Assembly (NCBI GenBank): GCA_002067365.1
Contig: MVRK01000071.1
Coordinates: 1 to 44,151, forward strand
Direction of reading: 5' to 3'
DNA length: 44,151 nt
Origin: Methanosaeta sp. PtaU1.Bin060
Lineage (GTDB): Archaea > Halobacteriota > Methanosarcinia > Methanotrichales > Methanotrichaceae
Part shown: piece after piece, positions 13,633 through 36,305 of the stretch
Position numbering within the stretch: position 1 is the first letter of the stretch
Layout of the letters: the number at the start of each line of letters is the position of its first letter
Notes under the pieces: model-generated
Database searches by the model: none
What the model saw: the letters and a program-made list of their open reading frames with translations, nothing else
What the model was told of the DNA's origin: nothing
Made by a program: the position numbers and the translations under genes

Positions 13633-13803
13633 TGAGACTCATCCAATCATCATTAGCCGGAAATGGCTTTCCTCTCGATCGATATATATCTTCCCGACTC
13701 ACATGGCCCGTGCCTGCTCCCATCGGCGGCGAAGGCCTGACGATTATGAATACAGAATACGAGGCGATTTGAATAAAATAATGGTGAAGATCCTGGGATC
13801 TTC

Positions 13804-15400: not shown

Positions 15401-15426
15401 ATATGAAATCTTCATATTTTTTCATA
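15401..15426. promoter_or_regulatory. Candidate operator: TATGAA/TTCATA half-site cluster
   Basis: ATATGAA (15401-15407), ATC, TTCATAT (15411-15417) is a perfect 7-3-7 inverted repeat. A further TTCATA follows at 15421-15426, ten bases on and so on the same DNA face. The TATA-like CTATATATAAG begins 16 bases after the inverted repeat. A minus-strand TATA-like box ends four bases to the left, so a bound protein could affect both glnA and the plus-strand gene. Confidence 0.5.
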
Positions 15427-15506
15427 GCAATCTCTATATATAAGTTTCATCGAGTCGCGGGCAACATATATTTATAATTTTGAAACTAAGCTTATTTTAG
15501 GGATTA

Positions 15507-15523
15507 TTCATACAAATTATGAA
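15507..15523 (+). promoter_or_regulatory. Candidate operator TTCATA-N5-TATGAA upstream of glutamate synthase-like gene
   Basis: TTCATA (15507-15512), CAAAT, TATGAA (15518-15523) is a perfect inverted repeat with a 5-base spacer. Fifteen bases downstream lies CTTATATATATG. The same repeat, spacing and TATA distance recur at 35860-35876. It differs from the NrpR operator forms I know (GGAA-N6-TTCC, GGTA-N6-TACC), so the binding protein is unknown. Confidence 0.55.
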
Positions 15524-15538
15524 CTATTCACAACAATC

Positions 15539-15550
15539 CTTATATATATG
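15539..15550 (+). promoter_or_regulatory. TATA box for glutamate synthase-like gene
   Basis: CTTATATATATG is a strong archaeal TATA-like sequence on the plus strand, 15 bp after the TTCATA/TATGAA repeat. Transcription would start near 15565-15575 and give a leader of roughly 180 bases before TTG 15752. The alternative upstream box is CTATATATAAG at 15434-15444. Confidence 0.5.
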
Positions 15551-15751: not shown

Positions 15752-17350
15752 TTGAATCTGAGGAGACCCAATGCCAGTGCAGCAACTGGAACATTCAACC
15801 GCTCAAGAAGCGTTGTCCCCCAATCGGGATTGTGCTCGGACTGTCTTGATGGCTGCAGAGGTGGCTGTGAGACCTGGTTAGCATCGTTCAGAGGCAGAGA
15901 AGTGCTGTACCCAGGTCCTTTTGGAGAGATAACGGCCGGAGCAGATAAGGACTATCCCATAGATTACTCTCACCTGAGCATTCAGGGATACGCCGTAGGA
16001 GCCGCAGGATTGCCTGAGGGCGTCGAGGCTGGGCCCGATACTGCGCTCTTCCCCGGGGTCAATACAGAGACCGAGTACGGTTGGTCCAAGAAGGTCAAGA
16101 TGCATCTGCCCATCTTCACTGGCGCGCTTGGCTCGACTGAGATTGCCAGGAAGAACTGGGAGCACTTTGCCATTGGTGCAGCCATAACCGGAATCACCCT
16201 GGTGTGCGGCGAGAACGTCTGCGGAATCGATCCAGGGCTTGAGAGGGACGGCAAAGGGAAGGTGACCAAATCTCCCGAGATGGACAGAAGAATCAACATA
16301 TACAGGAAATTCTATGACGGCTACGGCGAGATCCTGGTGCAGATGAATGTGGAGGACACACGCCTCGGTGTGGCAGAATATGTCTCCTCCAAACACAACC
16401 TGGATACGATTGAGCTGAAGTGGGGCCAAGGAGCCAAATGCATCGGCGGCGAGATCAAAGTGAAGAGCCTTGAGAGGGCCCTTGAGCTCAAGAAGAGGGG
16501 ATATGTCGTCTCGCCAGATCCCGACTTGCCGGAGATTCAGTCGGCATTCCGTGGAGGGGCCATAAAGGAGTTCGAGCGCCACTCCCGTCTGGGCTTTGTC
16601 ACCTACGACGGATTCATGGCCGAGACTGACAGGCTCAGGGATCTCGGCTTCAAGCGCATCACTCTGAAGACTGGTGCCTACTCTATGGTCGAGCTGGCTA
16701 TGGCCTTGCGGTATTGCGCCGAGGCAAAGATCGATCTGCTGACCATCGATGGAGCGCCCGGCGGAACAGGAATGAGCCCCTGGCCCATGATGAATGAGTG
16801 GGGCATACCCACGTTCTACCTGCAGTCTCTGGCCATCGAGTTCGCCAATAAGCTGACCCGGCGCGGGCTGCGTGTGCCTGACCTTGCCATGGCAGGCGGC
16901 TTCTCGACTGAGGATGGCGTCTTCAAGGCTCTGGCGATGGGAACACCCTATTTCAAGGCGGTGTGCATGGGCAGAGCCCTCATGATCCCCGGGATGGTTG
17001 GAAAGAACATCCAGGACTGGATGAGCAAGAACGATCTGCCAAAGTCCGTCTCCAAGTTCGGAAGTAAGCCCGAGGAGATCTTCGTGGCCTACGAGGAGCT
17101 GAAGGCCAAATACGGGAACGATTTCAAGGATATACCCCTCGGCGCCATCGCCATCTATACCTACGGCCAGAAGTTCAAGACTGGCCTGCAGCAGCTCATG
17201 GCCGGCTCCAGGAACTTCAGGCTCTCCACCATCTCGCGAGACGATCTCATGGCGCTTACCGAGGAGGCGGCATACGTCTCTGGCATACCCTATGTCATGG
17301 AGGCCCGCCGCGAAGAGGCTGAGAGGATACTGGATGCCCTGGTTCCCTGA
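15752..17350 (+). CDS. Archaeal FMN-binding glutamate synthase-like protein
   Basis: A 532-residue protein equal to the FMN/synthase barrel of GltB without the glutaminase and GXGXG domains. Barrel signatures include MHLPIFTGALGSTEI, LKWGQGAKCIGGEIK, LTIDGAPGGTGMSPWP (FMN phosphate/active loop) and MAGGFSTEDGVFKALAMG. The N-terminus carries CSDCLDGCRGGC (Cys28, 31, 35, 39), a cluster-like motif preceding the barrel. It probably makes glutamate from 2-oxoglutarate and ammonia with electrons from ferredoxin or a partner; the glutaminase part must be separate. The start is TTG 15752 behind GGAGGAGG. Divergent from glnA, so it is a likely partner in ammonia assimilation. Confidence 0.88.
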   Translation: MNLRRPNASAATGTFNRSRSVVPQSGLCSDCLDGCRGGCETWLASFRGREVLYPGPFGEITAGADKDYPIDYSHLSIQGYAVGAAGLPEGVEAGPDTALFPGVNTETEYGWSKKVKMHLPIFTGALGSTEIARKNWEHFAIGAAITGITLVCGENVCGIDPGLERDGKGKVTKSPEMDRRINIYRKFYDGYGEILVQMNVEDTRLGVAEYVSSKHNLDTIELKWGQGAKCIGGEIKVKSLERALELKKRGYVVSPDPDLPEIQSAFRGGAIKEFERHSRLGFVTYDGFMAETDRLRDLGFKRITLKTGAYSMVELAMALRYCAEAKIDLLTIDGAPGGTGMSPWPMMNEWGIPTFYLQSLAIEFANKLTRRGLRVPDLAMAGGFSTEDGVFKALAMGTPYFKAVCMGRALMIPGMVGKNIQDWMSKNDLPKSVSKFGSKPEEIFVAYEELKAKYGNDFKDIPLGAIAIYTYGQKFKTGLQQLMAGSRNFRLSTISRDDLMALTEEAAYVSGIPYVMEARREEAERILDALVP

Positions 17351-35890: not shown

Positions 35891-35902
35891 CTATATATAA
35901 TT
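35891..35902 (+). promoter_or_regulatory. TATA box of the small plus-strand unit
   Basis: CTATATATAATT on the plus strand, centred near 35896. By the usual archaeal spacing, transcription should begin around 35916-35925. The first long ORF starts only at 36033, so the leader would be about 110 bases. Confidence 0.55.
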
Positions 35903-35914
35903 CCTGGCATGGAA

Positions 35915-35955
35915 AGCTGATGTTGAGCCGGGCTGAAGGCTCAATGAAATCAGCT
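35915..35955 (+). ncRNA. Nested two-tier hairpin at the predicted 5' end; structured leader or small RNA
   Basis: AGCTGAT (35915-35921) pairs with ATCAGCT (35949-35955). Inside it TTGAGCC (35923-35929) pairs with GGCTCAA (35938-35944) around an 8-base loop, leaving a 1/4-base internal loop. All 14 base pairs are Watson-Crick. Downstream, GCCCG near 35975 can pair with CGGGC near 35998. If transcription starts after about 35918 the outer stem is shortened. It could be the leader of the ORF at 36033 or the start of an independent RNA ending at the hairpin 36328-36371. No known RNA family was recognised. Confidence 0.4.
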
Positions 35956-36032
35956 CGTTGTTAAAGGCTTGACGGCCCGGCAGGTTTCGGCGAAGTGCGG
36001 GCTCCCCCCGAAGATATTCGACGGGCGGAAAA

Positions 36033-36305
36033 GTGTTGTTCGCTGCCAAGGAATCCGGATGGCGAACCATAGAATGGTCGATAGCAACGTGCGATCTAAA
36101 GAGGCAGATGTTGGCAATGGAACTGAGCAAGACGAGCAACTTCTATCTGATGGCGATGTATGTCTATCTGAAAGCCTATAATGAGGCCATTTCCGACTTT
36201 GAGGGCGCTGTGAAGGACGCTGGATACCCAGATATAGCCCTGATGTCTGTCAAGCAGAAATACAAAGAGAAGATCGAGCGCCTGGCGCGCGAGATGTCGA
36301 TGTAG
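36033..36305 (+). CDS. Small protein of unknown family
   Basis: A 90-residue frame from GTG 36033. Alternative starts are ATG 36108 (65 residues; AGAGG lies three bases upstream) and ATG 36117 (62 residues). The C-terminal part, NFYLMAMYVYLKAYNEAISDF then EGAVKDAGYPDIALMSVKQKYKEKIERLAREMSM, looks like real amphipathic helical protein, while the first 25 residues are less convincing. It lies between a strong TATA promoter and a terminator-like hairpin, which supports a transcribed gene. I do not recognise it. A competing frame at 35969-36181 looks like a shadow. Confidence 0.5.
   Translation: MLFAAKESGWRTIEWSIATCDLKRQMLAMELSKTSNFYLMAMYVYLKAYNEAISDFEGAVKDAGYPDIALMSVKQKYKEKIERLAREMSM

Follow-up and report, generated by a model that had tools for sequence, protein, structure and literature searches.

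A TTCATA-N5-TATGAA palindrome upstream of ammonium-assimilation genes in the Methanotrichaceae is a candidate operator of a nitrogen-responsive activator other than NrpR

In the genome of Methanosaeta sp. PtaU1.Bin060 and its relatives in the family Methanotrichaceae, the palindrome TTCATA-N5-TATGAA lies in front of genes for ammonium uptake and assimilation. On the evidence read from the sequences, namely the site, the set of genes behind it, the degree to which it is conserved, and its constant position in front of BRE/TATA, we consider it likely that the palindrome binds a dimeric protein controlling these genes, and that this protein is a nitrogen-responsive activator and not NrpR.

We analyzed a contig of 44,151 nucleotides (the window, meaning this whole stretch of DNA). 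The original prediction placed two copies of the palindrome in it, each followed after 14-15 bp by a strong plus-strand TATA box. Both copies were found to be exact, with their TATA boxes at 15 and 14 bp (Table 1). Under a first-order model, only 0.002 exact copies were expected in the 44-kb window and 0.12 in the whole genome of 2.78 Mb, compared with the 2 and 3 observed, respectively. No inward-facing half-sites with any other spacer from 0 to 12 were detected within the window. The protein encoded behind the first copy matched Pfam PF01645 over residues 295-412 (E 5.6e-15). A third, outward version of the site had also been claimed. Its letters are present at 15402-15416 and 15421, but the half-sites are arranged differently and no sign of conservation was found, so we dropped it as an instance of the same site; it is possible that this segment is a second promoter or an element on the glnA side.

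Table 1 Features of the window discussed in the text.
Feature	Position	Strand	Basis and remarks
NrpR-type palindrome GGAA-N6-TTCC, GGAAATGGCTTTCC	13659..13672	-	Between hisH TATA box and start codon; consensus from PMC2723118
glnA, 441 aa	13804..15129	-	TIGR00653 GlnA, 556 bits; divergent from glutamate-synthase-like gene
Outward half-sites TATGAA-N3-TTCATA plus TTCATA (15421), then CTATATATAAG	15402..15445	+	Sequence only
Putative operator TTCATA-N5-TATGAA, TTCATACAAATTATGAA	15507..15523	+	Exact match; 5' of glutamate-synthase-like gene
TATA box CTTATATATATG	15539..15550	+	Sequence; starts 15 bp past operator, a spacing class common to other regulon promoters
Glutamate-synthase-like gene (532 aa); TTG start codon preceded by GGAGGAGG	15752..17350	+	ORF; Pfam Glu_synthase PF01645
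Putative operator TTCATA-N5-TATGAA, TTCATACTTTTTATGAA	35860..35876	+	Exact match; 5' of small-protein gene
TATA box CTATATATAATT	35891..35902	+	Sequence; starts 14 bp past operator; CTTTATATAATTC conserved in orthologous promoters
Conserved small protein of 65 aa, or 62 aa with the ATG at 36117 as start	36108..36305	+	Orthologs

The third exact copy in the source genome (C43:11707) precedes a split glutamate synthase operon by 79 bp. This operon contains a class-II amidotransferase gene, a gene for a GltB-type synthase domain, a third gene of 273 aa and further genes. A copy with one mismatch (C43:13230) precedes a second glnA adjoining this operon, and each of the three amtB copies (contigs C134, C135, and C130) has a site that deviates at one or two positions. 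The genes that carry the site in this genome comprise gltB, glnA, three amtB genes, the glutamate-synthase-like gene, and the one at 36.1 kb; the site is exact at the gltB operon and at both window positions, and carries 1-2 mismatches at glnA and all three amtB genes.

We expanded the search to 50 Methanotrichaceae genomes and found 85 exact copies, compared with 8 copies of a control, the reversed motif, which is a palindrome of identical composition. The same half-sites separated by N6 occurred 12 times. In the other families of the class (188 genomes), the summed totals were about 124 for the motif and 101 for the control; outside the Methanotrichaceae the motif is background, with no enrichment. 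The fetched sites were then assigned to their neighbor genes, with gene clusters named using Pfam and with start codons and contig ends corrected by hand. Nitrogen or glutamine-handling genes were found directly downstream of about 73 of the 85 exact sites. Most of the sites belonged to amtB-glnK (27), the gltB operon (25), or the glutamate-synthase-like gene (10), while a divergent nucleotidyltransferase-glmS / glycosyltransferase pair accounted for 5, glnA, a formate/nitrite-type transporter, and the small protein for 2 each, and a redox pair with a GltD-like subunit for 1. Several of the gltB sites also lie directly downstream of glnA. Within the genus, eight orthologs of the glutamate-synthase-like gene have an exact site upstream. 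The five sites at the glmS pair came from five genomes, in one of which (L120) asnB follows the glycosyltransferase gene. The location of the site between these two divergent transcription units suggests that the regulon extends to sugar metabolism that consumes glutamine.

For about a dozen of the exact sites no obvious nitrogen target was seen; two of these were inside coding sequence. In G001, two exact sites were observed 248 bp apart on contig C96 (L067:6158-6422), far upstream of a kdpA-like gene and with no nitrogen gene adjoining. No nif gene was seen behind the exact sites in the Methanotrichaceae. The predicted enrichment near nitrogen genes was borne out for amtB-glnK, glnA, and the glutamate synthase genes, but not for nif.

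To cover genomes in which the exact site was absent, we located the glutamate synthase amidotransferase gene across the family and read its promoter. In eight such genomes the gltB promoter holds the site in the matching position, altered at one or two bases. Across 24 gltB promoters from eight genera, including eight without an exact site, the mean frequency of the commonest base was 0.96 and 0.98 in the two half-sites, 0.68 in the spacer, and 0.53 upstream, and the consensus was gTTCATAA.T.TTATGAAc.TTTCTTAAATAgcTATAAA. Genomes without exact copies were found either to have one- or two-mismatch copies at the matching place or to have lost the target genes. Three genomes, G005, G048, and G049, have no copy of the site, no gltB amidotransferase gene, and no intact amtB, and they have kept NrpR; here the site has disappeared together with its targets. 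The operator is common to a number of nitrogen genes and is kept from genus to genus, as in a nitrogen-assimilation regulon, and the expectations that the motif would exceed its control and would be kept in relatives were both confirmed, the latter at matching places in distant genera.

We analyzed the spacing between the site and the TATA box. Of the gltB promoters, 19 have the TATA core beginning 15 bp past the site, while in those of other species of genus g8 the distance is 25 bp, and in one case 35 bp, the extra length coming from additional copies of a 10-bp unit. Two of the g8 promoters were checked by eye, as the script had chosen a later T-rich stretch. In amtB promoters the distance is 17-19 or about 27 bp, with 13 amtB promoters having no clear TATA match by script. 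The site is upstream of TATA in all promoters that were read, and steps of 10 bp preserve the helical face. This favors an activator that contacts the basal transcription machinery, in agreement with the original proposal of activation and not simple repression. The 10-bp steps could also be plain duplication of the 10-bp unit (TTTCTCAAC). Archaeal upstream activators such as Ptr2, of the Lrp family, act from sites directly 5' of BRE/TATA. The palindrome described here, at about -54 and at a fixed distance upstream of TATA, resembles the Ptr2 arrangement, and we take this as a resemblance only.

The second window site precedes the gene for a conserved small protein. Its orthologs are 60-69% identical in nine aligned genomes, and a profile search of 200 genomes of the class returned 18 full-length matches, all from the Methanotrichaceae and none from the Methanosarcinaceae. 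In a titled sequence collection its relatives are mostly labeled Methanothrix, Methanosaeta, or Methanotrichaceae. AlphaFold2 predicted a two-helix hairpin with moderate confidence (mean pLDDT 76), and a weak match to ChaB fell below the cut-off. The promoters of all orthologs examined in the genus contain the operator with 0-2 mismatches, and those of genus g4 contain it exactly, while it is absent from the small-protein promoters of genera g2, g3, g9, and g10. The small protein is found under the site in the genus of the window and in G003. A small protein of the nitrogen response is known from Methanosarcina mazei, where sP36 (61 aa) links GlnK1 to AmtB1 (PMC10714827). The likeness is one of small size, about 61-65 aa, and of a place, predicted for the window protein, in the nitrogen response. 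We do not claim that the window protein is an sP36 member, as its profile found no full-length relative outside the Methanotrichaceae among the 200 class genomes.

The leader of the small-protein gene (35917-36107) exceeds that of most relatives in the genus by about 80-150 nt, and a strong hairpin (GCTGATGTTGAGCC...GGCTCAATGAAATCAGC) stands at its start. We considered a non-coding RNA at 35.9 kb and rejected it: there was no Rfam match, the fold of the leader (z -1.3) was no clear improvement on shuffled sequences, and the small ORF is conserved while the leader is not.

We weighed four other explanations of the site. The half-site TTCATA/TATGAA is AT-rich, as are the promoters, and the copies might simply be chance AT-rich palindromes near strong TATA promoters. 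However, a control palindrome of the same composition is 10-fold rarer, the N6 form is 7-fold rarer, nearly all targets are nitrogen genes, and no enrichment is seen beyond the Methanotrichaceae. The control, spacer, and target counts already refute this explanation, which is hardly credible. A more serious candidate is NrpR, the known archaeal nitrogen repressor. The site could be its operator in the Methanotrichaceae with a changed recognition sequence, bound by NrpRI while NrpRII contacts TBP/TFB and represses from upstream. NrpRI and NrpRII homologs were found in 48 of the 50 genomes, the NrpRI of the source genome has an HTH domain, and amtB-glnK and glnA are NrpR targets in other methanogens (PMC2723118, PMC11456600). 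However, the site differs in spacing and sequence from GGAA-N6-TTCC, the NrpR operator in Methanococcus maripaludis (PMC2723118), and its presence does not follow that of NrpR. G001, a 93% complete assembly with no match to PF01995 (NrpR), carries five sites, those at amtB, glnA, and gltB included; in G004 NrpR is degraded and near-sites have been kept; and G005, G048, and G049 have NrpR and no motif. Palindromes of the classical NrpR type also occur separately in some of the same promoters. In the hisH/glutamate-synthase-like promoters of relatives, GGAAAAGCTTTTCC and similar palindromes were located 12 bp from the TTCATA site or downstream of TATA, and in two relatives they stand in tandem downstream of TATA. 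Because NrpR and the site do not track each other and separate GGAA-N6-TTCC palindromes adjoin it, the site is probably not that of NrpR, in line with the original note, and an altered NrpR operator is very unlikely.

A repressor other than NrpR could instead bind the site and block BRE or the recruitment of the polymerase under ammonium excess. Some archaeal repressors bind 5' of BRE, and the site is close to the promoter, though fully upstream in all cases. In the gltB promoters, however, several bp separate the end of the site from the BRE-like TTAAATA, elsewhere the distance to TATA reaches 35 bp, and there is no overlap with TATA or the start, which makes such a repressor quite unlikely. 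As for the identity of an activator, an AT-rich palindrome of 17 bp in front of TATA is reminiscent of the sites of archaeal Lrp-family activators, and a glutamine-responsive Lrp/AsnC-type protein would fit. A precedent is Sa-Lrp of Sulfolobus, which is reported to respond to glutamine (PMC3584215). Against this, full-length Lrp genes were found both in genomes with and in genomes without the motif among the eight searched, most were linked to an aminotransferase gene, and none showed the site at its own promoter. No Lrp gene was therefore singled out, and we regard an Lrp/AsnC-type activator as unlikely. A transcription factor encoded near hisHF, TF1 (MRESTVKILDD...), was rejected, as it is present in every genome, including the motif-less ones, and in several copies in nearly all genomes. 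The conserved neighbor genes of the sites yielded no other regulator.

The gene set can be compared with two known systems. As with the genes under NrpR in Methanococcus maripaludis and Methanosarcina mazei, it includes amtB-glnK and glnA, with palindromic operators at archaeal TATA promoters. It differs in its half-sites, its spacer, and the breadth of its targets, which extend to the gltB operon, glmS/asnB, and the small protein. NrpA of Methanosarcina mazei (PMC11456600, PMC9765008) is an activator of nitrogen genes from the same order and would share its direction of action with the proposed regulator. However, NrpA is described as nif-specific and no nif gene was found behind the exact sites here.

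We propose that a dimeric DNA-binding protein on TTCATA-N5-TATGAA controls amtB-glnK, glnA, the glutamate synthase operon, the glutamate-synthase-like gene, and glmS/asnB, and in some genera also the gene for the 62-65 aa protein. The bound protein would respond to nitrogen status and would act from about -54 as an activator that touches the basal transcription machinery. It would not be NrpR, for which some of these promoters appear to carry separate GGAA-N6-TTCC operators. At the level of sequence, the enrichment, the nitrogen targets, and the conservation across genera give good support to the original idea of one regulator and an undescribed nitrogen regulon. We found no prior description of the motif in open-licence literature, and no description of nitrogen-assimilation control in Methanothrix in the literature searched.

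Methanothrix is a main producer of methane from acetate in digesters and wetlands. We lean towards a model in which a separate, so far unrecognized nitrogen-responsive activator runs ammonium uptake and GS/GOGAT in this family and has recruited the 62-65 aa protein, while NrpR would keep a smaller set of genes with GGAA-N6-TTCC operators. The findings would separate two layers of archaeal nitrogen control. The candidate operator, whose gene set and geometry are now defined, offers a direct handle on the missing regulator through DNA-affinity capture, and its presence at the small-protein gene predicts that this conserved protein works in ammonium assimilation.
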